Virus record (IMG/VR): IMGVR_UViG_3300047474_000993
Location: 1-26,556 of that record
Source of the DNA: a virus
Length of the DNA: 26,556 nt
Reading direction: 5' to 3' (one strand)
A program made the translations under genes and the position numbers. Shown here one piece after another: positions 1 through 14,137 of this stretch (its first letter is position 1; each line of letters opens with the position of its first letter). Under the pieces are notes generated by a model, which saw only the letters and a list, made by a program, of their open reading frames with translations, did no database searches and had not been told where the DNA came from.

Positions 1-191
1 TTAATAGATAAATCTTGAGAACTTAGCTGTTTTGATTTTTGTCGTTGTTGAGAAAAACCAACCGACACACTTTGGACAGTACTCATATAAGCGCCACTCA
101 TACTAGAACCATCTCTATTAGCGGTGGTAAACGCTGGTCTTTGCCCAGCGATCACAATTGAATTATTACTCTTTAAAATATCTCTAGCCAT
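1..191 (-). CDS. Partial tail protein, N-terminal 63 residues (tail-tube-like?)
   Basis: An open frame starts at ATG 189-191 and runs off the left edge of the window, so only the first 63 residues are visible (begins MARDILKSNNSIVIAG). It starts one base after the stop of the gpM-like gene, so it is the next gene of the tail operon. The segment VQSVSVGFSQQRQKSKQL resembles VQSANYSFNISRQDVNQF near the N-terminus of the plus-strand tail-tube-like protein (13040-14137). This suggests, but does not prove, another member of the same tube-fold family, placed where tail-tip genes usually lie. No clear Shine-Dalgarno sequence is seen, so expression probably depends on translational coupling. The function is inferred from position and a short similarity only. 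Confidence 0.6.
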   Translation of the reverse strand, partial: MARDILKSNNSIVIAGQRPAFTTANRDGSSMSGAYMSTVQSVSVGFSQQRQKSKQLSSQDLSI

Positions 192-192
192 A

Positions 193-1146
193 TTAAGTTC
201 CTGTTGGTATTACACCTAAAACATCTTCAACTAAAGTCAAAGATAGATCATTTGAGTTTTTATATTTCCAAGTATGATCCCATTCTGGGCAGTACATAAC
301 TTTGGGTCTATTATATACAGATGGTATCTGATGTCTGAATCTTCTATAACCCGCTTTATTCTCTAAAAAGTGTAACATGCATTTTAATTGCTTATCACTG
401 ATGTTGTTAAATTCATAAGAAACGGGGAATGATGCATTATTATCTTTTGTTTTTATTCTTTTTACAAAAGAGTTTTTGAATTCAATCTTTTCGTTTTTTA
501 ATTGGACCTCATTTTGTAAGCCTATATCAGGCTTGAAGAAGAATTCTTGAGACCAAGCTGAAGAAGCTCCCGTGGGGGAATTCGCGGCGGAAGAAGTATG
601 ATCTCCTGTGCAATAGTAAAAGTTGTTTAGTTTGTTTGTGTTGACTCCTGTATATACAACATCATACTTTTCATAAGCATTTGAATAGGCAAAACTTTCA
701 AAAGATAAATTAGTAAAATTCATCCCAGACCAATTAAATAGATTAGGAGACTGATCTACTATATATTTTACAGCGACTTCATAATGTTGATTATTAATAT
801 GATTAATTGCGTAGCTGTCAGAAATACCAGATAATGATTTATATATGCCGCTATTATCTATATTGAATTCAAAAAGAGTATCTCCATTTTTGCTTTCTAT
901 AAATGCCGCTATTTTTCTAGCATTGGTTTCATTAACATCATATCTGACTTGATATTCAGCTTCTAAATTATTTATAGAAGATGGGATTATGTTTGTTTGA
1001 AAATCATCTACTTCGTAAGTAAACGATTTTGATCTGAATGAAACTTTTGACCCATATACAGGGGTTAAACTAAGACCTGAGTAATCAGTTTCTACTGTTA
1101 CTCCAGAAATATTAGAATCTCTATTATAAAACAAATCAGAAGCCAT
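193..1146 (-). CDS. Tail-tip protein with two lambda gpM-like domains and a carbohydrate-binding-like insert
   Basis: The protein has 317 residues from ATG 1144-1146. A TTG two codons earlier is also possible but less likely. The C-terminal part (about 220-310) has the layout of lambda minor tail protein M: a helix with LKCMLHFLENKAGYRRF, then a YCPEWDHTW strand and a final LTLVEDV. An upstream segment (about 40-135, ARKIAAFIESKNGDTLFEF ... YEVAVKYIVDQ) looks like a second, diverged copy of the same unit. Between them (about 155-205) lies AYEKYDVVYTG ... NFYYCTGDHTSS ... WSQEFFF, which has the aromatic spacing of small chitin/cellulose-binding (CBM5/12-type) modules often found in phage tail proteins. 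The start overlaps the upstream gene by 11 bases. The likely role is at the distal tail or tail tip, after the tape measure. The fold assignment is by eye and the role is inferred from gene order. Confidence 0.6.
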   Translation of the reverse strand: MASDLFYNRDSNISGVTVETDYSGLSLTPVYGSKVSFRSKSFTYEVDDFQTNIIPSSINNLEAEYQVRYDVNETNARKIAAFIESKNGDTLFEFNIDNSGIYKSLSGISDSYAINHINNQHYEVAVKYIVDQSPNLFNWSGMNFTNLSFESFAYSNAYEKYDVVYTGVNTNKLNNFYYCTGDHTSSAANSPTGASSAWSQEFFFKPDIGLQNEVQLKNEKIEFKNSFVKRIKTKDNNASFPVSYEFNNISDKQLKCMLHFLENKAGYRRFRHQIPSVYNRPKVMYCPEWDHTWKYKNSNDLSLTLVEDVLGVIPTGT

Positions 1147-1927
1147 GACCAATATAATTTAAATTTAAAACTAACGCTCCATCGGCTGAAGCAGATAAAG
1201 ACTCACTAACTAAGGAAGCGTTAGGAATACTTAATGATTGAATATTAGCCCCTCCCCGACCATCTATATCAAAACTAATAGTTTTATTTTCCCTATTAGT
1301 TAAGAAATTAAAAGCCGATTCAGGTAAAGCTTGATCGACTTCTATTTGAACTTGAGCGGAATATTCTAACGGCGGAATTAATTCTACAGCAACCGCAGAT
1401 TCTTGACCGATACTATACTGGGGTTTTCTCTCCGCTTTGATCGAGTAATCAAAACCAATCACACGATTCGTGGATGAGTTGTCACAACTTATACTTATAG
1501 AACCTTGAGACGGGATATCTATAGAGCTTATACTTTCGGCAGACGAGGTCTCACTGGATTGACTGACTAATTCATCAATAATCATGAAATCAGCATTGAC
1601 TTTAGGTACAGAACCAACAGCGCAATTCACAGAATAGTTATTTAAGTAACCACTATCGAACTCGTATTGCTTACTGTTGTAAGTTACAGACCCTGAAGTG
1701 CTTGACGCTCCTGTCAGAGCTAAAACAGGATCATCATAAATAAGATATCTAGATACAGATAAGGTCTGTTGTGTAGCTGCACCAACAGTAGTTAATCCGT
1801 TTTTGGACCCTAGTATCTTAGATGTCGTCGCATTATTGGAATATGAAATACTAGCGGAATCAACACCAGACAGGTGTTTTCCCGCGACACGGACCTCTAC
1901 TTCTTCATTTAGTCTTGAATCAAACAT
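1136..1927 (-). CDS. Second tail-tube-like protein (paralogue of the 13040-14137 product)
   Basis: This is a 263-residue beta-rich protein starting at ATG 1925-1927. The start is preceded by AGGAG and shares one base with the tape measure stop (TAATG), so translation is coupled. The sequence follows the plus-strand tube-like protein in order. Near the N-terminus it has GVDSASISYSNNATTSKI. Later LNNYSVNCAVGSVPKVNADF matches LSDYSLDLSVGSLPTASVSF, and IQSLSIPNASL is comparable to IQSASLSIPLS. Both proteins contain an Ig/tube-like run of alternating Ser/Thr strands. This gene follows the tape measure, where siphoviruses encode distal-tail (Dit-like) and tail-tip proteins, so it may form a ring capping the tube. 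The paralogy is visible in the sequence, while the distal-tail role is inference. An alternative is a tail-surface decoration protein. Confidence 0.6.
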   Translation of the reverse strand: MFDSRLNEEVEVRVAGKHLSGVDSASISYSNNATTSKILGSKNGLTTVGAATQQTLSVSRYLIYDDPVLALTGASSTSGSVTYNSKQYEFDSGYLNNYSVNCAVGSVPKVNADFMIIDELVSQSSETSSAESISSIDIPSQGSISISCDNSSTNRVIGFDYSIKAERKPQYSIGQESAVAVELIPPLEYSAQVQIEVDQALPESAFNFLTNRENKTISFDIDGRGGANIQSLSIPNASLVSESLSASADGALVLNLNYIGHGF

Positions 1928-4900
1928 TATCTCCTAAGTTGTCCTCCCAATCTTTTCTCGTCAGCAATGACCTGCTTAACAGCAGATTTGATTTTCTCGG
2001 ATAGGTTTCTTTGCTCCTCAGAGGCTCCCTGACCACCGACACTACTTTCGGACCCGTTAGATCCATTTACAGTGATACTGATGTTACCCGCCGTCTGAGA
2101 GTCTTCTGTGGCTCTTATAAGCTCATCTAGTTTAAGAACTAAATCTGAATTGTCGCTAACTCCAGTTCCAGAGTTAAGAGCTTGTAAATTTGATGCTCCA
2201 ATATTTTGGGTAGCAGCAGCGTTCATAACAAACTCTCCGCCAGAAAGCATTGCGGGAACTGTATCGACTCCACCAGCAGCAGGAATTAATCCTCCTGTAG
2301 CTCGTTTAGGGATCATAGGATAACTTCCAGTTAAGTCCCCATCTTCATCAAACAGATCACCAAGATTATGTTTAATGCCATCAATAGTCATTATTGCGTC
2401 AGATGAAGGACGCGCCAGAGGCATTGTGGCAGCGGATTTAGAACGTGTGGCAGCTGATTTTGTAATTACATTCAAATTAGCCCCTTCTATTTCAGATAAA
2501 TCGACTTTAGAGCTTAACAGATTGGTAAATGCCCCACTTTCCGTGGCGGCAGCTCCAAACGCTCCTCCTGAAGAAGGCGCTCCAGTAGTCACCATCCCGG
2601 CGTAATTACCAGCTGAAGACCCTATAAGTTTAGACATTCCACTCCCTAACCCCATTGTTGACCCTAATTGGGTAGCCCCATAACCAACAAGAGTACTGAT
2701 GGCTGCTGAAGCCAGCATACTACCTAAACTGACTTTTTGGTCTGAAGCTTGTTGTCGTGCGGCTATTTCTTGACCTGCCAACTGGAAAGCTTGCAGCTTC
2801 GCGGATTGCACTTTTTGGAAAGCGGGATTATTTCTGCGGCCAAACCCTGTCATCCTTGCGCTTTCAGATCCCAAGAATGCTCCGTAACCCCTTAAATCAT
2901 CTCTGCCCATAGCGAGAGGCGTTTGCGTAGCAAAAGACATTAAGTTCGCCCCTCCTCTTATAGCCCCCGCTCCATTTACTCCCGGAGTCATAAACATACC
3001 TTCTTTATCTCTGACTTGACCTCCTCTAGCAAAGCCTTGAATAGATCCAGAGTTTAACGCTGACATAAAACCAGTTCCGTATTTACTTACGGCCTTTTTA
3101 TTCATGACGTATTCTCCACCCATTAACATAGCTGGCACATCATCTCTACTACCAGAACCACCATTAACTTTACCCCCTTCAGAGAAACCGAGGAACCCTA
3201 AAATTCCACCTTTAGTACTTTCGTTCGCCGCTTGATCCATAAACTTTTGAACAAAGTTCTGAGTCATAGATTGTAAAAACGTATTAGCAGCGTTTAAAAG
3301 AGCGTTTTCTAAATCTTCAGCGCCTTTTATACCTTCCGCGAAAGCAGAGACTATACCGTCTCTAAATGTTAAAGAGGTTGAAGCCATCTTGTTTAGGAAT
3401 TCATCATTGATAACTTTAGGATCTTTTTTCATATCGTCTAAACGATTTTGGTAAGTTCTGGCCATCATCCCAGCCCTAATAGCTTGTTCAGGAGGTAATC
3501 CGGGCCTATCTCCTATAAAATCAGAATCTCTTTTCCTTCTAGCTGCTTCTCTACTTAATCCCATCCCCTCAAGGTCCATAGATTCAGATTGAGCTACTGC
3601 CATAGCTTGCATTCTAGCATCATTTATTAGCTCCGGTTCTCTTAACCTCTTCAATCTTAATTGAACTGAGAATAGGGTGGCTCTAGTTAATTTAGCTATC
3701 TCAACTTCATTGTCTAAATTGTCTTTTGTCGCTTCTTCTGTTTGTTTGAAGTTTTTTAAAACTTGTTCAGATATTTTGTTTATATTATCCCGAGATTTTG
3801 CGAAATCTGGTGCAAAAATTCTAATAGAACTTTTCAAATCATTAGTGAATTGTTTGAAACCTTCTTCATCTGTAATCCCTGCAGCTTTACCAGACAATTC
3901 CTTGCGTTGGAACGCCGATAACTGCTGCTCACTCAATTTACCTAATAAATCCGAACCTGCCGCACTAAAAGTAGACTGTTTCCTTAAGGCTACAGCCGCA
4001 GGACTTAGTTCTTCCTGTCTCCTCGATTCGGCCCTCTGAATTGCTTGAGCTTGATTTGCAGCCCCGACATTTACTGCGGTATGAGCGATTAACCCTAGAG
4101 CATCACCCTCTTGTTTATTTTTCAATTTCATTGCAGCCGCCTGATTCCTGTCAGCCATATTCTGCAATGATATAGAATTAGATATTAATTGATTCTTTCT
4201 CTCTAAATTCTGCAAGGAGATCTCATCTTCAATCCTCTGTAATTGTTTTGCGTTTAACTCTCCTTTTTGTAAAGTTTCAGACTCGGATAAAGCTTTTAAT
4301 TTCTCTCTGAGAAGTTTCTCATCTACCTCTCCCAATTGCCCAGTCTCCCCCGCTAGTTGATTTAGCCTACTCGCAAATCCAACCGCCGCATCATCAGTTA
4401 ACAAACCGTTCCTAGCTACCCCAAGCATGGATTGTTTAATCCCTTCTAATGTCGCGGTATCCACATTTAATTGTTTTAGCTTATCAATTTCCGCATCTAA
4501 AATACTTAATCTTTTATCATCAAACTTGTTAGACAAACTCTTTCTTTCTTTAGCGTCTGTCAAACCCATCAATTCCAACTTAGTCAAAGAACCCAAAGCT
4601 TTAGCTTTGTCTATTTGTAAATCTAATTGGTTAGTCCTTAATGTTTCTTGTTTAGCTAAAGCAATAGTGTTTTTTAATTGGGCTTTAGCCACTTGCCCCT
4701 TAGTAAGTTCTCCGCTTTTTAGTTTTTCCTCTTGTCTTAATTGCTCGTCTCCTAAAGCTTTGGAGAGAGTTCGACCCATTGAACCCAACTGATCTGCTGC
4801 CTTCTTCTGCGCGTCTGGGGAATCTTCTTTCGCCATGTTCACAGCCGCTCCAAGTTCAAATCTTCTGAACTGTTTTGAAGGCATATAATCGGCTAAATAC

Positions 4901-7900
4901 TTGGAGAGTTGTTCACGAAGTTGATTACCACTCATGCCTTGCGCTCCACCTTCAGTGAATGGCTTATCAGGAGCATTCTTTAACCTAGCCTCCATTTGAT
5001 TGTTAAGCTTTTCTTCATCGGCCCCTTTCAAAGCTTTCTCAAGCTTATCGGTTACCAAAAATTGAATCTCTTGATTGGTTTTGCCGCCTAAAGATAGTTT
5101 TTCCTTAGAATCTAAAGATGAAAGTACTGAGATAACAATCTGTTTTTGAACATTTTTTTCAGCTTTCCTAAATTCATCCATATCATCTATCTTAGTTCCA
5201 CCGAATGAATCTAGTTTTTTAGCTCCAACACGTTTCCCACGACGATTCCTTAAAATCTCTACATCCTGCTTCTCTCCTGAGAATTGTCCCACAATATCAT
5301 CTATTCTTTTCTTCGCTGCTTCTTCGGGGCTTCGATTCTGTATCTCTTCAACTGTTTTCCCTTCTTTGCTGGCTTGTAGCATCATTGCAGCCATGCTACC
5401 TAACATATTTACATTACCTTCTCCTCCTGAAAATATATCTTGAGAAGCTTTTTCAGCTAACTTATCCAATGCTTCTGAAGCTTTTTCAGCTGGCGTTTTA
5501 ATGAATCCTAAGGATTTACCTATTGAGCCTATGATATCAACCCCGAATCCTTTCAATAAAGGATTCAAAAGAGTAAATGCTGTCACAGCTGTCCCCACAA
5601 CAGGCAGAAACCTCATAAACCCTCCTGCTAATTTAGCTAAGCCCGACCCCAACTTTCCTACACTTTTACCTAATAGAGGAGTTGCTGCCACCGCTGTGGA
5701 AATCCTTCCTCCCCCGCCAGCCGCGAAGTTTTGTGATTTTTTAGCAAATGCAGCAGCGCCTTTACTTTTACCGCCTAATCTTAAGCCGGGGTTAACCCCC
5801 ATCATTTGCATGGTCATGAAAACCATCAAAGCACTCATAGCCCCTTCAGATAGATCTGCGAAACCCTTAGTTAATCCTTTTGCATCTTTAGACGCTTCAC
5901 TTATACTAGATCCGAACAAACTTAAACCCATTTGCATAGCAATGAACTTCATGCTAAGACCATCAGCGCTCATGCCTGTCTTTTTTAAAGATTGTGTTGT
6001 TTTTCTGGTGGCCTTAGCAGCTTCTTCAGAAGCTTTTTGTGAGGCGAGTAAAGAGTCTTTTGCAGCTTTTCCACCGAAGCCAGCGGCTATTTGTTTATCG
6101 CTTAAAGCAAAATTAGGAATAGCTCCGGTAGGCTCATCACGGGTATTCGTCACAGCGAGACCCATTGGGTTTTTCGAGTTACGAAGCTTACCACTTTGAT
6201 TAATTCTAATTTGACTAACAGGCAAACCAGCAGCCTTCTCTCTGCCGACAGCTTCTTCTAAAGCCCCACCCGCGAAGTTAGGTATGTATCCTGTCGCGGC
6301 TCTAAATTTAGGAATCACCTTTTTTATTTGAGAGATAAGAAAATCTCTTTGGCTGGGATCATTGAAAGCTTTACCTATAACTGTCCTTACAGCTTCGTTA
6401 GAGGCTGTTCTTTTTCCATCTGATTTTTGAAGTGAAGGAGTAAACTTAAATGTGTTTTTAAACGCTTTACTAGGTCGCCCCGCACCTTCTTCAAAGTCAA
6501 AAGGTTTCTGATCATCTTTCTCATCTTTAAAAGCTCTTAGTCCCGAAGCTTTCTTTGTAATAAGTCTAATCGCAGATTCAAATATACCACCTTCTACAGA
6601 AGAGCTAAAAAGATTAGCCCCGCCACCTTGGTTTTTTATCTTTTTTAATTTGTTATTTAATTCTTTGGCATCATTACCTTGAAAAGATGTACCAAGAATA
6701 TTAGCGCCTAATGTAGCAACAGGATTTATGAAAAGATCCGCTATTTGATTTTTAAATTTAGTTTTTTTATCTTTTAGATTATCAGAATGCAAACTCCTAA
6801 CTTGAATACCTTTAAATTGTATATCAGTTATCCCCGCTTTTGCAGCTGATTTAGCTAGAGGAGAGCTTAAAAGAGAGGGTGATGTTTTAGAATCCCCTGT
6901 TTTCTTTGAAGAAAAAAGAGACGCCACTCCATACCTATCAGCTGGCACTATTAGAGTTTTAGATCCTTGGTTCCTGTTTCTAAATTGATTAATTTTATCT
7001 TTATCTGCTTGACTAGCATTTCTAAAAGATTCAGCGGCTTTGTTAGATTTAAAAGTCCCATCCGCTTTCATATAGTTTCCGGGTCTCCTAATAATATCTT
7101 GAATACTCGCAAAGTTTGGAATATAACCTGAAGCAGCTCTGACTCTTTTAGCGTTTGCAGGAAGACCCATTGAAGAAGCCATATTTTGATTAAATATAGC
7201 ATCTCCGCCATTAGCGTAATTAGGAACAATATATTCGCTGCTATTAGCTACCATAGTTCCCCTCTTGCCCCCACCAAAAGCAAAATTAGGGATAACTACG
7301 GGTTTGGCAGAAGCAGGTGCGCCGCCCACTCCACGAGATATATCAGACTTCTCTGCTCCAACAGGTAAGAAACCGTCAGCCGCTCTACGACCTCGGCCCC
7401 GCCCTCTTCCAGTTCTTGTCCCCGCCATTACAGATGGAGCGATATTTGCGGCGATACCTTGCATCTTGGTCATCACAGCTAATTGCTCGTTAAGAGCTGT
7501 GGTAAAGAACTTAGCTTGTAAAACCTTTTTTTCCTCAGTAGACACGCTTAGCTTTTCAATATCTAATATCTTTTTTCTTATAGATTTATCATTAATTAAA
7601 GAAGAAGCTATTTGACCTTGCAATTTAGCTTGCCTTTCTGCAGCTTTATTAAGACCAAAAAATACACTTAAAGATTTAGCTCCAAATTTTCCAAAATCTA
7701 TTAGCAGCTTTCCAACTACAGCTAAAGCTAAAGCTAATCCGGGGCCAGAAATTATATTAGAAATGCCTTTTATCAATCCTTTTGCTAGGTTCGAACCAAT
7801 ACCTTCACCATCTAAAACGCCTTGGATATTACTTACAATACTATTGAAAAATCCTAAGATGCTTTTTAAGTTGTCTGTAACTCCAATTTCCCCTAAAGTA

Positions 7901-9024
7901 TTAGCGAGTTCCTTTAAATTTAAAGTTGCTTTATTGATCGCTGCGGATAAAGTATCATTCAATGCGGCATTCCTTTGATAAGCTTCATTAGCTGCATTAA
8001 AAGATGTTTTGGTTACCTCACCACTTCTAGAGACTTCTTGGTTGTAATCCTCAAGTAAAGCCAAGAAAGGTGCAATTTGAAATTTTCCTACAAGCTTATC
8101 AGCTAAATTTACTTGAGCGCCTTGACCTAATTTAGCGAACGCTGGGGCTAGGTTTTCTATGATTTTACTAGAAGATAAAACTTTACCTTCTAAATCTGTG
8201 ACTTGAACCCCTAAGTTCTGTAAACTTTGCAGTTTATCAAAATCTTGAATTCTTACAAAAATTGTTTTCAAAGAGTTACCAATAACAGCTCCGCCCCTAG
8301 CAGTTTTTTCTTGTAGGGCAGATATAATACCAACTAATTCATCAAATTTTACACCTGTAGAAACAGCAACCGCTCCAGAACGCTTGATGCCTTCGATTAG
8401 GTCTCTATCCGACACAGCAGCGCTTGCAGCTGCAGCAGAGATTTTGTTAAGCACTTCAGCGCTAGTTAATCCTGCGCTTTTAAAAGAGTTTATTGCGGCT
8501 GTCAATCCAGATACAGAATCAGCAGCGTTCATCCCAGAAAGACGAGATAAAATTAAAGCATCATTTAATCTTTTAGTAACCTGTTCAGCTTTAAGGCCTT
8601 GACGAGATAACTCCAGAGCGGCTTCGGCAACATTAGCGAATGATTGTTCTGTATTTCGCGCTATATCAAATATATTATTTTTAAATGAGTTTAATTGAGA
8701 TTCACTCTGTTTAAGTATAGAATTTATATTAGCTAAGCTCTTCTCGACTTCGATAGTCGTAGTCACTAACTCTTTCATCCCTCTTGTCACGGCGGCTATA
8801 GTGCCTACAGAAGCGCCAAAAGCTAACACACGAGCGTTAGCAGCCGCCATTGATTTAGTGAAATCGTCTGCCTTGCCCGTAAGCCTACCTAAAGGTTGAG
8901 ATAGAGATTCAATACTCTTAGCCCCCGGCCCCATATTAATCTTGAGGCTTTTCCCAGCTTTCTGGGCAGCTTGTTGAATACTTTGTTCTAAACCTGTTTG
9001 TACGACTGGGACTTTAATTGGCAT
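1927..9024 (-). CDS. Tail tape measure protein (2365 residues)
   Basis: The tape measure protein sets tail length and is ejected ahead of the DNA. This one has the TP901-type core at residues 60-340, including VEKSLANINSILKQSESQL, DIARNTEQSFANVAEAALEL and GGAVIGNSLKTIFVRIQDF. Hydrophobic segments lie near 425-445, 1030-1085 and 1130-1170. Long charged coiled coils fill about 1200-1850. Two glycine-rich motifs, DDVPAMLMGGEYVMN and DTVPAMLSGGEFVMN, lie near the C-terminus, and five [IV]PN[FY]A motifs lie between 578 and 972 around an inserted globular region. The start at ATG 9022-9024 has GGAG at good spacing. If every residue counted at about 1.5 angstroms, the tail would approach 350 nm, but the inserted domains make this an upper bound. 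The gene follows two chaperone-like genes, as is usual for tape measure genes. The function is near certain. Confidence 0.96.
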   Translation of the reverse strand: MPIKVPVVQTGLEQSIQQAAQKAGKSLKINMGPGAKSIESLSQPLGRLTGKADDFTKSMAAANARVLAFGASVGTIAAVTRGMKELVTTTIEVEKSLANINSILKQSESQLNSFKNNIFDIARNTEQSFANVAEAALELSRQGLKAEQVTKRLNDALILSRLSGMNAADSVSGLTAAINSFKSAGLTSAEVLNKISAAAASAAVSDRDLIEGIKRSGAVAVSTGVKFDELVGIISALQEKTARGGAVIGNSLKTIFVRIQDFDKLQSLQNLGVQVTDLEGKVLSSSKIIENLAPAFAKLGQGAQVNLADKLVGKFQIAPFLALLEDYNQEVSRSGEVTKTSFNAANEAYQRNAALNDTLSAAINKATLNLKELANTLGEIGVTDNLKSILGFFNSIVSNIQGVLDGEGIGSNLAKGLIKGISNIISGPGLALALAVVGKLLIDFGKFGAKSLSVFFGLNKAAERQAKLQGQIASSLINDKSIRKKILDIEKLSVSTEEKKVLQAKFFTTALNEQLAVMTKMQGIAANIAPSVMAGTRTGRGRGRGRRAADGFLPVGAEKSDISRGVGGAPASAKPVVIPNFAFGGGKRGTMVANSSEYIVPNYANGGDAIFNQNMASSMGLPANAKRVRAASGYIPNFASIQDIIRRPGNYMKADGTFKSNKAAESFRNASQADKDKINQFRNRNQGSKTLIVPADRYGVASLFSSKKTGDSKTSPSLLSSPLAKSAAKAGITDIQFKGIQVRSLHSDNLKDKKTKFKNQIADLFINPVATLGANILGTSFQGNDAKELNNKLKKIKNQGGGANLFSSSVEGGIFESAIRLITKKASGLRAFKDEKDDQKPFDFEEGAGRPSKAFKNTFKFTPSLQKSDGKRTASNEAVRTVIGKAFNDPSQRDFLISQIKKVIPKFRAATGYIPNFAGGALEEAVGREKAAGLPVSQIRINQSGKLRNSKNPMGLAVTNTRDEPTGAIPNFALSDKQIAAGFGGKAAKDSLLASQKASEEAAKATRKTTQSLKKTGMSADGLSMKFIAMQMGLSLFGSSISEASKDAKGLTKGFADLSEGAMSALMVFMTMQMMGVNPGLRLGGKSKGAAAFAKKSQNFAAGGGGRISTAVAATPLLGKSVGKLGSGLAKLAGGFMRFLPVVGTAVTAFTLLNPLLKGFGVDIIGSIGKSLGFIKTPAEKASEALDKLAEKASQDIFSGGEGNVNMLGSMAAMMLQASKEGKTVEEIQNRSPEEAAKKRIDDIVGQFSGEKQDVEILRNRRGKRVGAKKLDSFGGTKIDDMDEFRKAEKNVQKQIVISVLSSLDSKEKLSLGGKTNQEIQFLVTDKLEKALKGADEEKLNNQMEARLKNAPDKPFTEGGAQGMSGNQLREQLSKYLADYMPSKQFRRFELGAAVNMAKEDSPDAQKKAADQLGSMGRTLSKALGDEQLRQEEKLKSGELTKGQVAKAQLKNTIALAKQETLRTNQLDLQIDKAKALGSLTKLELMGLTDAKERKSLSNKFDDKRLSILDAEIDKLKQLNVDTATLEGIKQSMLGVARNGLLTDDAAVGFASRLNQLAGETGQLGEVDEKLLREKLKALSESETLQKGELNAKQLQRIEDEISLQNLERKNQLISNSISLQNMADRNQAAAMKLKNKQEGDALGLIAHTAVNVGAANQAQAIQRAESRRQEELSPAAVALRKQSTFSAAGSDLLGKLSEQQLSAFQRKELSGKAAGITDEEGFKQFTNDLKSSIRIFAPDFAKSRDNINKISEQVLKNFKQTEEATKDNLDNEVEIAKLTRATLFSVQLRLKRLREPELINDARMQAMAVAQSESMDLEGMGLSREAARRKRDSDFIGDRPGLPPEQAIRAGMMARTYQNRLDDMKKDPKVINDEFLNKMASTSLTFRDGIVSAFAEGIKGAEDLENALLNAANTFLQSMTQNFVQKFMDQAANESTKGGILGFLGFSEGGKVNGGSGSRDDVPAMLMGGEYVMNKKAVSKYGTGFMSALNSGSIQGFARGGQVRDKEGMFMTPGVNGAGAIRGGANLMSFATQTPLAMGRDDLRGYGAFLGSESARMTGFGRRNNPAFQKVQSAKLQAFQLAGQEIAARQQASDQKVSLGSMLASAAISTLVGYGATQLGSTMGLGSGMSKLIGSSAGNYAGMVTTGAPSSGGAFGAAATESGAFTNLLSSKVDLSEIEGANLNVITKSAATRSKSAATMPLARPSSDAIMTIDGIKHNLGDLFDEDGDLTGSYPMIPKRATGGLIPAAGGVDTVPAMLSGGEFVMNAAATQNIGASNLQALNSGTGVSDNSDLVLKLDELIRATEDSQTAGNISITVNGSNGSESSVGGQGASEEQRNLSEKIKSAVKQVIADEKRLGGQLRR
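6109..7299 (-). repeat. IPNFA-type repeats flanking an inserted domain inside the tape measure gene
   Basis: Five copies of [IV]PN[FY]A occur at about residues 578, 600, 635, 914 and 969 of the tape measure protein, in contexts such as AASGYIPNFAS and AATGYIPNFAGG. Some are followed by a conserved-looking block, LEEAVGREKAAGLPVSQIRI then NPMGLAVTNTRDEP. The long gap between copies three and four (residues 640-910) holds a compact, lysine-rich, non-coiled-coil region. The repeats are seen directly. Their role is unknown: they may be spacers, membrane or capsid contact sites, or protease sites. Confidence 0.7.
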
Positions 9025-9042
9025 GATCTTACTCCTTTATGA

Positions 9043-9064
9043 GTATATACACTAATATTACACA
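9043..9064 (-). promoter_or_regulatory. Two tandem GTGTA motifs upstream of the tape measure gene
   Basis: On the minus strand GTGTAATATTAGTGTATATA contains two copies of the window's recurrent upstream motif. The first overlaps the Val-stop codons of the preceding gene and the second lies 23 bases before the tape measure ATG. Here a normal GGAG ribosome site sits between motif and start, so a transcript starting at this site would have a short leader. The repetition is seen; the promoter role is inference. Confidence 0.45.
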
Positions 9065-10047
9065 TCATGACCTGCTAATCTCATCATTTGTTTCATATCT
9101 AGTTTGCCGCCAGCTTCTTTAGTAGCTTCTGATAACGATGTAGAATTAGAATCTTGAGCAACCATTTTCATATCTTCTTTTGTGGCTCCAAATACAGCCG
9201 AAGCGTCAGCATCATCTTTAATACCTCCGTTATTTGAGTCTTTATTCCTTTGATTCTCTGAGAAAGCCATCAACTTATCTGGATCTTCTTTTATATTATC
9301 AGGAACATCATCAGTATATTGGAAAATGCTATGGAAGACCCTGCCATACATTACTGTTTTCATTTGATACACAGATAAATCTATTATAGCTTTACCATAA
9401 AAATCTCTAGGGTTTTCACAATTAGCCAGATACATACTAAAAAACGGTTTTAAAACCGCATATTTAATATTATCTTCTGACATTTTATCTGTCACAGCCC
9501 CCAGTCTAATATTTAATTCTGCTATTTCATCAGATTCTAGTTCCCCAAACTCATCTTCCGTATGGAGGTTTTCTTCAAATTTAAGATCCTTGAAAAAACA
9601 AAACCTTAACATTTCATCCGCAGATCGTCGATTAGCGTAGGCTTCAGCAGTTAAACCTACAACTTCAGCTTTTTGATTCTTTAATTTGTATAACTCTAGC
9701 AGCTTTTCATTAATGGTTTTCTGCAGAGCTTCTCTTTTAGAGGGCAGGAATAAAGATTTTTTTGTCTTTTGTAAATTTTTAGTCTCATTTTCCAATGAAA
9801 CAATTTTGATATCATCGGATTCTTCCCATAAACCCTCATCCTTCACATAAGCAGACCTCTCTTCTTCACAATCTATTCCTTTAGAAATAGCTAGGTCTTT
9901 GTAGCGTTCATAGTACGCATTGAGATACTTCTGATCTCTTAAGTTTATGTGTTTAACGAATACGTCCCGACCTTTGAAGGTCGAGACGCTGTATCCGTCA
10001 AAAACTTCTCCTATCAGAGAAATATAGAACTCGTCACTATAGCTCAC
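9058..10047 (-). CDS. Putative tail assembly chaperone, second cistron
   Basis: The product has 329 residues and starts at GTG 10045-10047, with AGG nine bases upstream. The start overlaps the end of the previous gene by 11 bases in another frame. The middle has an amphipathic charged region (about 65-130, with a KNLQKTKKSLFLPSKREALQ helix) followed by GLTAEAYANRR. The C-terminus is acidic and disordered-looking, ending in KQMMRLAGHDV. Its place directly before the tape measure gene, overlapping a first cistron, matches the G/GT or gp13/gp14-type tail assembly chaperone pair. A fused product would need a -2 (or +1) shift, since this frame opens only at AAA AAG just before the GTG. No residue-level signature confirms a chaperone, so the role rests on gene order and size. 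Confidence 0.55.
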   Translation of the reverse strand: MSYSDEFYISLIGEVFDGYSVSTFKGRDVFVKHINLRDQKYLNAYYERYKDLAISKGIDCEEERSAYVKDEGLWEESDDIKIVSLENETKNLQKTKKSLFLPSKREALQKTINEKLLELYKLKNQKAEVVGLTAEAYANRRSADEMLRFCFFKDLKFEENLHTEDEFGELESDEIAELNIRLGAVTDKMSEDNIKYAVLKPFFSMYLANCENPRDFYGKAIIDLSVYQMKTVMYGRVFHSIFQYTDDVPDNIKEDPDKLMAFSENQRNKDSNNGGIKDDADASAVFGATKEDMKMVAQDSNSTSLSEATKEAGGKLDMKQMMRLAGHDV

Positions 10048-10792
10048 CTTTTTCTACCTGTTCCATCAACTCTTCAAACTCTTTTTGAGATGAAGCTTGG
10101 TTGTAGAACCAGAAAGCTAATGTGGTTGAGACTTGTTTGATTATCTTTTGATAAACCTCAGAGTTTTCCTCCTCTTTATCATAATAATCCTCAAGTTTCG
10201 CTTCGTAATCTAAACCTTCAAAATAAGAAACAGGATCTTCATCCTCCTCCTTTTGGATATAAGTTAGATTCAAAGCGTACCAGAGAAGCAGTTTGTTTTG
10301 CGCTCTTACGTCTGCAGTGTGTTCAAATAGACCTTGTAGATTCGTTTCTACCTCAACTAACTGTCTTTTTACTTCAGCGATTCTTTCTTTGACTTCTTCT
10401 AGTCTATCTTTCTGATCTTTTGTTAGTTTAGTAGCAGAATCAAGTCTGACATATTCATTTTGATATTCTAAGATCTGCTTGTAGAGCTTTCCATATTCCT
10501 TTTGCCCTTCCTCAGTAAAAGCTCCTCCTGTATCATCATACTTCTTAGCGAGCATAGCTTTTGTTAGAATGCCTTGTTTGACACACTTACTCATTTCGAT
10601 TGTGTATTGAAGCTCGCCATCTTCAAGTTCGCGACGAGAAGGTTTCTTAATTTTTACTTCGATTGGGGTTTTTTCCTTAACCTTCTTTTTTACGATAGTA
10701 GTCTCACCTGTTTTTTTGTTCTTGCGGGAAGTCTCTTTTTCCACTTCACGAACCTCATCTACAGTGAACTGATATAATAATTTTAAATCCAT
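10037..10792 (-). CDS. Putative tail assembly chaperone, first cistron
   Basis: The product has 251 residues. ATG 10790-10792 (MDLKLLYQFTVDEV) is chosen as the start rather than an upstream TTG that would overlap the previous gene. The N-terminus has a Lys/Glu-rich beta region, KKPSRRELEDGELQYTIEMS, followed by a helical GILTKAMLAKKYDDTGG segment and a long coiled coil (about 115-170). The C-terminal part is acidic, with an EVYQKIIKQVSTTLAFWFY helix. The gene sits two cistrons upstream of the tape measure and overlaps the next gene by 11 bases, so it fits the first of a tail-assembly-chaperone pair that coats the tape measure before tube polymerisation. The function is by position. The protein itself was not recognised as a named family. 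Confidence 0.55.
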   Translation of the reverse strand: MDLKLLYQFTVDEVREVEKETSRKNKKTGETTIVKKKVKEKTPIEVKIKKPSRRELEDGELQYTIEMSKCVKQGILTKAMLAKKYDDTGGAFTEEGQKEYGKLYKQILEYQNEYVRLDSATKLTKDQKDRLEEVKERIAEVKRQLVEVETNLQGLFEHTADVRAQNKLLLWYALNLTYIQKEEDEDPVSYFEGLDYEAKLEDYYDKEEENSEVYQKIIKQVSTTLAFWFYNQASSQKEFEELMEQVEKGEL

Positions 10793-10796
10793 ATGC

Positions 10797-11084
10797 CTAC
10801 TTAAATATAAATTCAACTCTGTAATTTTCTATTTCATTCTTGACATTTCTTAAACTTTCATTGCCAAAATCTAAAATCCTCTTTCTGATCCAAGATACTT
10901 TATCTGGGGTAAAATGATCTGCAGCCTTTATAACTGGGTGGTATTCCTTAGGTATACCCTCGTAAAGCTTAGCGTAATGAAAATCGTGGTCTTTTTTCAT
11001 GTCTTCCACCATGATTAGCATCATTTTGAATAGTGAGGAGACCTCATCACCAGACCTTTGATTTAAATTTTTTTTAGCATTCAT
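10797..11084 (-). CDS. Small protein of unknown function, first gene of the tail operon
   Basis: The product has 95 residues and is helical and charged (SSLFKMMLIMVEDMKKDHDF, then SWIRKRILDFGNESLRNVKN). The start at ATG 11082-11084 follows GGATAAAGG, a fair ribosome site. It is the first minus-strand gene after the divergent junction at 11085-11127 and lies four bases before the chaperone-like gene, so it belongs to the tape measure operon. No signal peptide, membrane segment or known motif is visible. It may be a small tail assembly factor, but this is only guilt by association. Confidence 0.6.
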   Translation of the reverse strand: MNAKKNLNQRSGDEVSSLFKMMLIMVEDMKKDHDFHYAKLYEGIPKEYHPVIKAADHFTPDKVSWIRKRILDFGNESLRNVKNEIENYRVEFIFK

Positions 11085-11127
11085 CCTTTATCCAAGTTAT
11101 TATAAAAAAAAAAGTGTAAATATCTAC
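11085..11127. promoter_or_regulatory. Divergent promoter region between the minus and plus tail operons
   Basis: This 43-base gap separates two divergently transcribed operons. On the plus strand AAGTGTAAATAT (11112-11123) is the recurrent upstream motif, with nine bases between GTGTA and the ATG of the plus-strand gene and no Shine-Dalgarno sequence. On the minus strand, TATAAT lies 14 bases before the ATG at 11084, followed by GGATAAAGG. Both units must start here or read through from outside, so promoters are expected. Exact start sites are inference. Confidence 0.55.
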
Positions 11128-11592
11128 ATGGCTGGCTTTTTATCTACAAACATGGAATCGAGTATCAACTCAATGTACGATACCCTTCATGAAACTTTTG
11201 CTCAAACTATAACTGTTTTCAAGAATTCTAAGAGGACGGTGGTTTCCACGAACTCAAAGTATAATAATATTTATGGTAGAACCAATACAGGTTCAAAATC
11301 AAGCGTAGAATATACCACAGAATCCCAGTCTTTCGCGGCTAGAATCTATTATATTGATATGGATGAAGAGTACCTTGATAACGGAGCTAACCAGCAAGGG
11401 ACTCAGAATAAAATCGTCCTACCTGATGGTTCGGTTAAGATGATTGTTAAAGCTGATGCTTATGATTATATCAAAGAGGCTAGAAGGATAGAATTGGATG
11501 GGATTAGATTCGCGATTAAAAGTGATGGATCTCCTTCAGGTCTGACCACTAACATTTTTTACACTTTCTTACTTACACCAATAGATGAGTAA
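11128..11592 (+). CDS. Putative neck / head-closure-type protein
   Basis: The product has 154 residues and is first in a four-gene plus-strand operon. It has an N-terminal helix (SSINSMYDTLHETFAQTITV) followed by a beta-rich half with a YIDMDEEYLD segment, KIVLPDGSVKMIVKADAYDY and LDGIRFAIKSDG. A small beta protein with a short N-terminal helix next to tail completion and tube genes is typical of head-tail adaptor or stopper proteins (gpFII, gp16 types), but I see no diagnostic motif. The motif GTGTAAATAT ends a few bases before the ATG and no ribosome site is present. The stop overlaps the next start (TAATG). The call rests on position, size and composition. Confidence 0.45.
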   Translation: MAGFLSTNMESSINSMYDTLHETFAQTITVFKNSKRTVVSTNSKYNNIYGRTNTGSKSSVEYTTESQSFAARIYYIDMDEEYLDNGANQQGTQNKIVLPDGSVKMIVKADAYDYIKEARRIELDGIRFAIKSDGSPSGLTTNIFYTFLLTPIDE

Positions 11593-12164
11593 TGGCTATT
11601 CTACCTAGAGACGTCCAGCTTGCTTTAGAAAAACAAGCCCCAAAACAATTAAGAAGACCTTTCGAGAAACAATTCAAAAAAGATTTCTTAAGGATTAAAG
11701 ATCAAATGATTAAAGAGTTTCTATCTCACCCAGTGACTATAGAATTATCTATGGGGCCGTCAGGGAGCAATATCAGCAATACTTTGGGTGGTATTTCTAA
11801 CCTTTTCTCATTTATAGGGTTCGACTCTTCAGATGATCCGATTACACCTATTTTAGATATTTTGCAGAATTTAGATTATAATTATGTAGGAGAGGTTAAA
11901 ATTGGGGTAAACTATTATATAAACATACCCGAAGCTGCAGACATTTTTAAAATGACTCCAATGCCTTGGGCTACAGGAAGAAGTTGGGCGCAAGGAATAG
12001 AAACGGGTATATCAGGGCTTGGCTACTTACTTAGGAAGAATGATGGACGATCTGGAAAAGCTATCCAATCCAGAAACAAAGTAAGATCGGGTAAGTTCCA
12101 AAATACCAGTTATATTTCTGCACTGATAAAAAAATACAAAAAAGAATTCAATAATATAAAATGA
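11592..12164 (+). CDS. Putative tail completion / neck protein
   Basis: The product has 190 residues. The N-terminus is basic and helical (RPFEKQFKKDFLRIKDQMIK, then EFLSHPVTIEL). A loop rich in Gly/Ser follows, then a YVGEVKIGVNYYINIPE strand region and a WAQGIETGISGLGYLLRK helix, with a basic tail. HK97 gp10-type tail completion proteins have a similar order of helix, beta hairpin and a W...GI-type helix, but the match is by eye only. The start overlaps the previous stop by one base and the stop overlaps the next start by four (ATGA), so the operon is tightly coupled. It probably works at the head-tail joint. A tail-terminator role is the alternative. Confidence 0.45.
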   Translation: MAILPRDVQLALEKQAPKQLRRPFEKQFKKDFLRIKDQMIKEFLSHPVTIELSMGPSGSNISNTLGGISNLFSFIGFDSSDDPITPILDILQNLDYNYVGEVKIGVNYYINIPEAADIFKMTPMPWATGRSWAQGIETGISGLGYLLRKNDGRSGKAIQSRNKVRSGKFQNTSYISALIKKYKKEFNNIK

Positions 12165-12991
12165 AAGAACAATTCATACATACATTGACCAATTCATTCA
12201 TGCTTTGGTTTGATAACTTTTTGTTAAAAAAAGGAGATGCTTACTCCAACCAAACTGGACAGTTTTACCATACCCCAGACGATTTCCTTCAGGATTCTTA
12301 CGTTCCTTTCTCTAGTCCATACAAACAATTTGTAAGCGACTCTTCGATTGTTGGAGCTACGCTACCCACAGGGATAGCTGGTAACTCTCATTATATTGAT
12401 TATGATAATGGCCGTATAGTAGAAACAGGAAGCAATTATACATCAAGCTCAACAATTACAGGAACGTTCGCGGTAAAAGATTTCAATATCTATTTCACTA
12501 ACGAAACTGAAGACGACCTTATCGTAGAGAAGAAATTTGAGTTAAATTCTAGAATCCCAACATATAACGATTCTGGTATAGACCCTTATGATCAAGTAGT
12601 TCCAGCTGTTTTCTTGTCTACAGCTACAATGCAAAATAACCCTTTAGCTTTCGGCGGCGAAGAGCAAACTACCGTTCGCGCTAATGCTGTAGCCCTTTCA
12701 GATGACCCTTACAAATTAGATGGTATCTTATCTATATTTGGGGACTCACACAATGAAGTTTTTTATCCCATTCCTATGAGTGGGCATCCTATGGATGAAT
12801 ACGGCGATTTAAAGAATGGTTCGTATTCGTATTCAACGCTATCAAATGAGTATAGCAACAATAAACCTTTTTTAGTAGATAATGTGACTACTTCAAAATT
12901 GACAGATAAAGCAAGAAAGTCTTTAGCCAATGATCTCTATGTCGGATTTATAGATTTCGACATCAAGATCCATAGGTTCAGGTTTTCTTAA
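12161..12991 (+). CDS. Putative tail terminator or neck protein, unrecognised family
   Basis: The product has 276 residues, starting with an ATGA overlap of four bases with the previous gene. It begins with a helix (FIHTLTNSFMLWFDNFLLKK) and is otherwise beta-rich. Later parts include YIDYDNGRIVETGSNYT, TVRANAVALSDDPYKLDGI and a C-terminal LYVGFIDFDIKIHRFRFS. The final segment and the RANAVALSDDP block suggest a structural protein with a beta sandwich. It is immediately upstream of the tube-like gene, where tail-terminator genes (gpU or gp15 types) usually lie. No signal peptide or membrane segment is seen. The role is inferred only from gene order. Confidence 0.4.
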   Translation: MKEQFIHTLTNSFMLWFDNFLLKKGDAYSNQTGQFYHTPDDFLQDSYVPFSSPYKQFVSDSSIVGATLPTGIAGNSHYIDYDNGRIVETGSNYTSSSTITGTFAVKDFNIYFTNETEDDLIVEKKFELNSRIPTYNDSGIDPYDQVVPAVFLSTATMQNNPLAFGGEEQTTVRANAVALSDDPYKLDGILSIFGDSHNEVFYPIPMSGHPMDEYGDLKNGSYSYSTLSNEYSNNKPFLVDNVTTSKLTDKARKSLANDLYVGFIDFDIKIHRFRFS

Positions 12992-13039
12992 TTTCACATT
13001 ATTCAAAAATAAATGTAAACAATATAAAATCAACCTATT

Positions 13040-14137
13040 ATGTCCAGAAACAGAGTAATTTATCAATCAGAAGCCCTTTACGTCAGTAAAGACGCTACTG
13101 CAACAGGATCAGGCGACCACAAACAGTTGGAGCGCGTTCAATCAGCTAACTATAGCTTTAATATTTCTAGGCAAGATGTCAACCAGTTTGGTATGCTTGG
13201 AAAAGTCGGAAGTATGGTGCTTGAAGCTCCTACTGTATCAGCAGATACATCGTATCTTGTAACAGACGGCTTTAACGAAAGAGCTTTAGGGTTTTTCGTT
13301 ACGAAATCTACCGCAGCGACGACTTCAGGATCTTTTATTTCAGGTCACATGAACGACGGTTCAGGTCAAAACCTTTTCATCACAACTGTTCCCGAAGGAG
13401 GTGACGCTACTGGTGTAACTGTTTCGGGAGCTACTAACGATGCTATCGGAATCGGAAACGCTTATCTTTCAGATTACAGCTTAGATCTTTCTGTGGGGTC
13501 TTTACCTACAGCTTCCGTTTCTTTCGAAGCGTCTAATATTAATAGTAATGCGGGTAATGATATAATCAACCCAGCAGTTAATCAATCTAACGGAACCGCT
13601 TTAACTACTAAAGTACAATTACCAACCGCCGACAGTGGAAATACTTCAGAAATAGCTTTACGCCCCGGAGATATCACAGTTGATATTTCTGACGCTACAG
13701 GTCAGGTTCTTGTAGATATTGATAGCCCAGATAATGATTCAGCTCATATCCAAAGCGCGTCTTTATCTATCCCACTCTCCAGATCTTCTTTGGAGCGGTT
13801 AGGAACAAAATACGCCTATGCTAGGGCTGTTGATTTCCCAATTCAAGCTACTTTATCAGTTAATGCTATTGTCAATGAAACTCAAGCGAACGCTTTAACT
13901 ACCATCGTTGACGATGAAGCTTCAAAGACTTTGAGATTAACCCTTAAAGCTGAAGATGGTTCTGACGCTATGATATACATCTTGAAGGGATGCCAAATCA
14001 CTAGTGAATCCTTCTCTTCATCTATCGGTTCCAATAAATCGGTAGACCTGACATTTGTGACTTCCATTGGAGGTCCAAGCGATACAGCTAATGGAGTGTT
14101 CGTAAGTGGAGCTAATACAAGCGGATCATTCTCCTAA
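13040..14137 (+). CDS. Major tail (tube) protein
   Basis: The product has 365 residues, is beta-rich and low in Cys, with a pattern typical of tail tube subunits: VQSANYSFNISRQDVNQFG, then LSDYSLDLSVGSLPTASVSF, a middle GDITVDISDA domain that looks Ig-like, IQSASLSIPLSRSSLERLG and a final strand set ESFSSSIGSNKSVDLTF. Codon use is richer in C-ending and GCT/GGA-type codons than the preceding genes, as for a highly made virion protein. It is the last gene of the plus-strand operon and ends 25 bases before a strong two-way terminator. A 48-base gap precedes it, with ATGTAAACAATATAAAA, a weak variant of the recurrent motif, so it may have its own promoter. A smaller paralogue is at 1136-1927. 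A tube rather than sheath role is inferred from length and the absence of a sheath gene. Confidence 0.7.
   Translation: MSRNRVIYQSEALYVSKDATATGSGDHKQLERVQSANYSFNISRQDVNQFGMLGKVGSMVLEAPTVSADTSYLVTDGFNERALGFFVTKSTAATTSGSFISGHMNDGSGQNLFITTVPEGGDATGVTVSGATNDAIGIGNAYLSDYSLDLSVGSLPTASVSFEASNINSNAGNDIINPAVNQSNGTALTTKVQLPTADSGNTSEIALRPGDITVDISDATGQVLVDIDSPDNDSAHIQSASLSIPLSRSSLERLGTKYAYARAVDFPIQATLSVNAIVNETQANALTTIVDDEASKTLRLTLKAEDGSDAMIYILKGCQITSESFSSSIGSNKSVDLTFVTSIGGPSDTANGVFVSGANTSGSFS

Follow-up and report, generated by a model that had tools for sequence, protein, structure and literature searches.

Three tail-tube-like paralogues and their probable places in the tail of an uncultured siphophage

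Why would the tail module of a phage carry what looks like a tube protein at both of its ends? The question was raised by virus record IMGVR_UViG_3300047474_000993, of which we examined positions 1 to 26,556 (26,556 nucleotides; hereafter, the window). The window is the structural module of a tailed phage and lies mostly on the minus strand; its terminase and tape measure genes were recognized by family match, and its portal and capsid genes were assigned from position. Within this module sits a plus-strand block of four genes, encoding proteins of 154, 190, 276, and 365 amino acids (aa). A sequence-only reading had noticed that the 365-aa protein resembles the 263-aa protein encoded after the tape measure gene, and had proposed that a tube-type fold had been duplicated. 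Below, A denotes the 365-aa protein, B the 263-aa one, D the 319-aa protein encoded after B, and C the open reading frame (ORF) cut by the window end. The pairing of A with B proved correct, yet it was an undercount: C is a third paralogue. The features that carry the argument are as follows.

13040..14137, plus strand: A, probable major tail tube protein; 365 aa; two predicted tandem tube domains, at about residues 7-173 and 207-358
13466..13525, plus strand: A hairpin, residues 143-162 (LSDYSLDLSVGSLPTASVSF), a stretch quoted in the earlier reading
1136..1927, minus strand: B, predicted tube-fold protein directly after the tape measure gene; 263 aa; probable tube-to-D ring (T5 p140 / HFTV1 connector-like)
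1586..1645, minus strand: B hairpin, residues 95-114 (LNNYSVNCAVGSVPKVNADF), the counterpart of the A hairpin
1..191 (ORF 3-191), minus strand: C, first 63 residues of the third paralogue, presumably of tube fold; cut by the window end
193..1152, minus strand: D, putative tandem Phage_min_tail (lambda gpM-type) protein, probable distal tail ring; PF05939 E 7.3e-9
1927..9024, minus strand: tape measure protein; TIGR01760 E 8.7e-36, PF10145 E 2.6e-25

Relationships among A, B, and C

To compare A and B directly, we used BLASTP, which aligned them in a single ordered stretch of about 200 residues (A 142-340, B 94-259; E 1e-4). The pair has a local score of 97, whereas 2000 shuffles of B peaked at 82 and the 304 ORFs of 230-330 aa outside labels A-D at 69. 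When alignments of 26 A and 31 B relatives were compared with hhalign, the match probability was 95.9 (E 5.6e-9); the profile comparison that had been proposed as a check of the sequence-only reading therefore did not come back empty. Together, the shuffles, the other ORFs, and the profile comparison rule out a chance resemblance. The likeness first seen by eye lies in the hairpin, where 8 of 20 residues are identical in both 20-residue stretches. Since the hairpin pattern is conserved in all three families (26/26 A, 31/31 B, and 32/37 C rows), this likeness is best understood as constraint.

The 63-residue C fragment alone gave no significant BLASTP match to A or B. Whole C proteins in relatives, which mostly measure 359-373 aa, matched A with BLASTP E values down to 1.8e-24, and hhalign aligned C with A nearly end to end (E 2.9e-37). 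A third short match at positions 1-191 had also been reported, and with full-length orthologues it turned out to be real and stronger than noted. The profiles of B and C matched more weakly (probability 76, E 2.2e-5), and by sequence, C is far closer to A than B is. Matches to the A profile were labeled A, B, or C by best score, so these labels are not an independent test of specificity. D gave no match to A in a sequence comparison, and we rejected it as a member of the A sequence family.

Family databases recognized B best. It matched PHROG 290, "minor tail protein" (E 8.5e-10), and Pfam Phage_tube_2 (PF18906; E 6.1e-6), the latter at 26.5 bits, 0.5 bit below the curated cut-off of 27. A matched neither PF18906 nor PHROG 290. 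One C, from record G002, matched PF18906 weakly (E 0.0044), and none of the 37 C members of one family alignment had a Pfam match at E 0.01. Searched by sequence against solved chains, B had no match at E 1, and A matched eight unrelated chains, all weakly (a PDZ/LIM protein came first, at E 0.0053), so that we discarded a link to solved tube proteins; no T5 chain was among the sequence matches of either protein.

We therefore turn to predicted structure. AlphaFold2 modeled both A (predicted local distance difference test [pLDDT] 77.4, predicted template modeling score [pTM] 0.78) and B (pLDDT 76.2, pTM 0.75) as two tandem tube domains, in agreement with the earlier expectation that structure prediction would yield related folds. 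In Foldseek, the first hit of A was 7qg9_G (E 1e-12), followed by tail proteins of SH-Ab15497, DT57C, T5, and P74-26; the first hit of B was the same chain (E 3.4e-10), followed by the T5 tube, SH-Ab15497, DT57C, P74-26, and a chain of HFTV1. Structural comparison with VIA gave Z 20.0 over 299 aligned residues for A against the T5 tube, and Z 18.0 over 254 aligned residues for B against T5 tube chains. Solved two-domain chains align over most of the length of A and B, and single-domain tube chains align to one half or the other (approximately A 7-173 or A 207-358, and B 5-131 or B 137-263). On these models, A and B belong to the tail tube fold superfamily (the beta-sandwich tube domain) and are predicted two-domain, T5 pb6-type fused tube proteins; C would be of the same type. 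With BLASTP, the shuffles, and the predicted folds all pointing the same way, the original proposal that A and B are homologous and share a tube-type fold is upheld.

The closest solved chains bear on the question of what B is. We take 7qg9_G, a 298-residue T5 tail-tip chain, to be p140 from its size, and 9fkb_BA of HFTV1 to be the baseplate-tail connector (BTC), likewise from its size. B matched 7qg9_G and 7qg9_A about equally (Foldseek E 3.4e-10 and 6.5e-10; VIA Z 17.7 and 18.0, a tie), the identities of these chains being read from their length. The HFTV1 chain was matched by B at E 2.7e-6 (Z 12.5) and by A at E 4.5e-4 (Z 10.5). Among predicted viral structures, B had 75 matches at E up to 0.001, many of two-domain size, which indicates that the two-domain fold is not rare in viruses.

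Age of the duplications and roles in the tail

How old are these duplications? When the halves of the proteins were compared, like halves matched: A1 with B1 at a score of 44.7 over 26 columns, mainly the hairpin (shuffled maximum 22.9), A2 with B2 at 40.6 over 86 columns (shuffled maximum 21.1; 60 shuffles each), A1 with C1 at 153.5, and A2 with C2 at 120.8. Cross-half scores among A, B, and C were 12-23, near the shuffled range. This pattern suggests that the two tube domains were probably fused before the gene was duplicated. By sequence, the internal halves of A or of C scored barely above 60 shuffles, and no internal repeat was detected in B (score 17.5; 4/60 shuffles as high).

A tree of 63 rows of A, B, C, and related tube-like proteins placed B in one clade (support 99/99; stem 2.9 changes per column) and C in another (100/99; stem 1.5), with 27 A rows plus C set apart (98/97). 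At the DNA level, A and B showed no significant similarity (best E 0.11). Gene order was tallied as well. Several of the locus comparisons cover the best 80 of 162, 99, and 157 relatives, and the tallies thus describe the closer relatives. The tape measure gene directly precedes B in 75 of 77 distinct B genes, both exceptions lying in locus L088, and the order B-D-C behind the tape measure gene holds for all 65 distinct D genes with enough flank. The lack of DNA similarity, the long-stem clades, and the fixed order of tape measure and B together place the split before the sampled family; judged by sequence, the A/B/C duplications are old relative to it. The recent event that the sequence-only reading had in mind is thus not borne out, for B or for C. 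Its suggestion of a recently derived tip ring survives in part: a tip-side ring encoded after the tape measure is the more likely role, while the recent origin falls away.

To approximate copy number, we used codon adaptation to the family capsid genes as a proxy, in 12 of the 15 records holding A, B, and C. Adaptation was higher in A than in B in 12/12 records, higher than in C in 12/12, and higher than in D in 11/12 (the C of record G024 is cut by the contig end). In the window, the values were 0.433 for A, 0.332 for B, and 0.365 for the C fragment. This bias fits an abundant A and minor B and C, and it speaks against the other earlier suggestion, a tube built of A and B as two subunit types.

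We then considered D, which is encoded between B and C. All 27 members of the D family matched PF05939 (Phage_min_tail) at E 0.001; the window D did so at 36.4 bits, below the cut-off of 39, and the D of record G002 was above it (52 bits). Two PF05939 stretches were found in D, in the window at the permissive threshold of 1 and in the G002 and G001 copies at 0.1 and 0.01. The halves of D also match each other (score 30.5, against a maximum of 19.7 in 60 shuffles). By sequence, then, D appears to consist of two Phage_min_tail domains in tandem and is probably the distal tail ring; gpL- and gpJ-type genes lie elsewhere in the long relative G002. We take PF05939 to be the family of lambda gpM, a protein that forms a hexamer.

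From this evidence, we consider it fairly probable that A is the major tube protein, that B is a ring like T5 p140 or the HFTV1 connector placed before D, and that C is a further ring at the tip. B is read as the same kind of ring as p140 and BTC because both its gene position and its fold match theirs. A, B, and C would be ancient paralogues, all derived from one gene in which two tail-tube domains were already fused, and each would probably close into a trimeric, pseudo-hexameric ring like that of T5 pb6. Copies of A would be stacked many times around the tape measure as the major tube; B would probably contribute just one ring, lodged between the end of the A stack and the gpM-like D ring; and C would probably add one further low-copy ring at the tip, its position being the least certain part of the model. 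With D as a fused gpM-type pair, tube and tip could be threefold throughout.

Several observations weigh against this arrangement. Confidence in the models of A and B is middling (pLDDT 76-77), the trimeric rings, though probable, are argued from fold analogy, and the structure scores do not assign A to pb6 and B to p140 separately, since the same T5 chain tops both lists. A itself carries inserts near the N terminus or between the halves in loci L210, L212, and L293, so that an insert does not prove a tip position. Two of the 17 D-bearing records, the divergent G007 and G011, yielded no C with either the A or the C profile (the other 15 have C), which slightly lowers our confidence; behind the tape measure gene, G011 encodes B, D, and a 980-aa protein in that order, and G007 encodes B, a 630-aa protein, a further B-like protein, and then D. 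In the G008/L088 lineage, two tube-like genes (288 and 272 aa) lie between A and the tape measure, and neither D nor a separate C was found in the G008 record. The L083 protein (315 aa, labeled A) groups with a G008-lineage gene near B at a point where long branches meet, which makes the exact place of B in the tree unsure. Finally, the codon signal is of modest size. In the window, the 259-aa gene that precedes the tape measure gene scores 0.477, above A at 0.433, and base composition may account for part of the signal, third-position GC being lower in B and C than in A.

How do other explanations fare? A substantial possibility, though one that we would not call probable, is that B stems from an adaptor-ring lineage older than this phage group and common to T5 p140 and HFTV1 BTC, so that only C was duplicated from A within the group. 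The similarity of B to A is indeed far weaker than that of C to A, B stays behind the tape measure even in the records without C (G007 and G011), 9fkb_BA is matched better by B than by A, and BTC gp41 of HFTV1 is numbered beside the tape measure protein (TMP) gp40 in the account of that virus (PMC12494034). Set against this are the single T5 chain that tops the lists of both A and B, the absence of any sequence match of B to solved chains at E 1, and the sequence match that A still makes to B, whereas neither protein drew a T5 chain in the sequence searches. A recent duplication of B from A in this lineage, in comparison, is very improbable: the likeness visible by eye is confined to one hairpin whose conservation in all three families marks it as constraint, and both the missing DNA match (best E 0.11) and the B stem of 2.9 changes per column contradict it.

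The two remaining alternatives concern which protein builds the tube. A mosaic tube, in which A co-assembles with B or C as two subunit types, draws on the homology of all three proteins, on the two adjacent A-type genes found in 3/35 distinct loci, and on the SPP1 tail, for which two tube protein forms in a 3:1 ratio are described (PMC8718954). We regard it as unlikely given the lower codon adaptation of B and C in 12/12 records, the location of their genes behind the tape measure and around D, and the length of B, which is 102 residues shorter than A. That C rather than A is the major tube protein, or that C is the head-end ring of the tail, is quite doubtful as well; C is the same size as A and similar to it over nearly the whole length, but codon adaptation is higher in A in 12/12 records, A belongs to the block with the 154-, 190-, and 276-aa genes whereas C lies behind the tape measure and D, and no C was found in two of the records that have A and D. 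We thus retain A as the probable tube protein, with B and C as probable tip-side rings.

Variation among relatives and inserted domains

The remaining genes of the plus-strand block travel with A:

11128..12991, plus strand: three genes (154, 190, and 276 aa) travelling with A as a block; probable neck/tail-completion genes, from position only

None of the three had a significant family match in PHROG or Pfam. In the window, A and the capsid gene are encoded on opposite strands, as they are in 25 of the 30 relatives showing both. The block between the 153-aa gene and the tape measure (window 9058-14137) occurs in three arrangements among loci: the window type, with A and the 276-, 190-, and 154-aa genes opposite to the remaining genes; the whole block turned round (L065, L079, and L084); and all genes in the same direction (L083 and L088). 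Directly after C, locus L005 encodes a concanavalin/laminin-G-type protein (8205-8948; PF13385, E 4.5e-19), and in L096 and L143, the gene after C runs in the opposite direction.

In a search of whole records, the A profile was found in 27/30 and D in 17/30, and A, B, and C were all present in 15/30, including the two longest (134 and 140 kb). Judged by sequence, the constant elements are B and D; it is the extra tube-like rings that differ in number. In locus L296 of G007 (5326-10231), B-like genes of 316 and 265 aa flank the 630-aa gene, all before D, and no C was found. In locus L203 of G008 (2726-5188), proteins of 288, 272, and 261 aa are encoded between A and a tape measure candidate of >4100 residues; the 288- and 272-aa proteins match the B profile, and the 261-aa protein shows no clear match to any of A-D. 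More than one A-type gene was present in 3/35 distinct flanked loci (L017, L026, and L210; L083, at a contig end, was not counted). L017 (2900-5220) and L026 (7187-9507) each hold two adjacent full-length A genes, and in the tree, the paired copies within L017, and likewise within L026, are not mutual nearest relatives. These pairs are candidates for two-subunit tubes or for acquired second alleles.

Some of the proteins also carry inserts that may serve in binding. In record G001 (locus L206, 4406-6906, minus), C-type lectin domains (PF00059) lie between the halves of both B and D, and the C of this record has a 160-residue insert near its N terminus; a search for further lectin-bearing B genes returned only the G001 record. 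We considered a diversity-generating retroelement behind the lectin inserts and set it aside, as no reverse transcriptase match was found in 18 records (G001 included), several of them fragments. The C of locus L108 has a 111-residue insert between its halves, and that of L248 (3962-5932) has a 290-residue C-terminal extension with a GDSGNP motif and an upstream His. A trypsin-like identity for this extension was rejected, the motif having been seen by eye only and no solved chain or Pfam family supporting it. In L210 (4029-6176) and L293 (4026-6041), A measures 715 and 671 aa and contains a weak CBM_5_12-like stretch (E 0.023 and 0.13, respectively), which suggests decorated tubes. The B, D, and C rings could probably also present binding domains outward. 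Fibre genes are hard to recognize in uncultured phages, and such lectin-type ring inserts are places in which to seek their host-binding domains.

Where these phages stand among deposited ones was also examined. No relatives of A, B, or the capsid protein were found among 50,697 deposited phage records; the terminase found 69, all below 60% identity. Five matches to genome contigs pointed to metagenome-assembled genomes of four unrelated groups, probably mis-binned, and no host was assigned.

Comparison with T5, HFTV1, and other tails

The tubes of T5 (pb6), DT57C, P74-26, and SH-Ab15497 have two fused domains per chain, as predicted here, with VIA Z values of about 16-20. A tube chain forming a trimeric ring is described for T5 (PMC10038345) and P74-26 (PMC10034513). 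One account calls the trimeric tube ring unique to T5 and DT57C (PMC11313276); since other papers give it for phiCbK (PMC8718954) and P74-26 (PMC10034513), it is probably commoner than that account states. T5 pb6 has a C-terminal immunoglobulin domain (PMC10038345), whereas the window A ends with its second tube domain. The present proteins differ further from pb6-type tubes in that no solved tube chain is among their sequence matches and in that two extra paralogues accompany A. A literature search, judged by title and the start of the abstract, returned no paper on three tube paralogues in one siphophage.

The account of T5 attributes p140 to duplication of the tube gene and describes it as one trimeric ring separating the tube from the distal tail protein; it also describes pb3, whose two tube domains are joined by a linker that has expanded into a larger domain (PMC10038345). 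In HFTV1, BTC gp41 is described as a pseudo-hexameric trimer of two homologous domains (PMC12494034). Like the genes of p140 and BTC, the gene of B lies in the tip part of the tail cluster and encodes a tube-like paralogue. The differences lie in number and in partners. T5 has one tube duplicate, whereas two (B and C) are present here; the ring next to p140 in T5 is the pb9 hexamer, whereas D here would be a fused gpM-type pair; and the HFTV1 tube protein is given as a hexamer (PMC12494034), whereas tube protein A is predicted to have two domains. Compared with Phage_min_tail proteins, D appears to hold two domain copies in one chain, with a C-type lectin between them in one relative.

Tentatively, and as something possible rather than probable, we propose that these uncultured large siphophages have a tail that is threefold from tube to tip. 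In place of the usual hexamers there would be three two-domain tube rings, paralogous to one another, and a double gpM-type ring made by fusion, and the rings at the tip would also act as interchangeable platforms for host-binding modules inserted between their halves. Were every ring a trimer, the tail tip would not need its usual change from sixfold to threefold symmetry. A T5-like layout, with a fused tube domain and a tube gene duplicated into a probable tip ring, is seen here in phages whose tube, ring, and capsid proteins found no deposited relative. In kind, the arrangement is that of T5 and HFTV1, extended by a third paralogue and a fused gpM-type protein.

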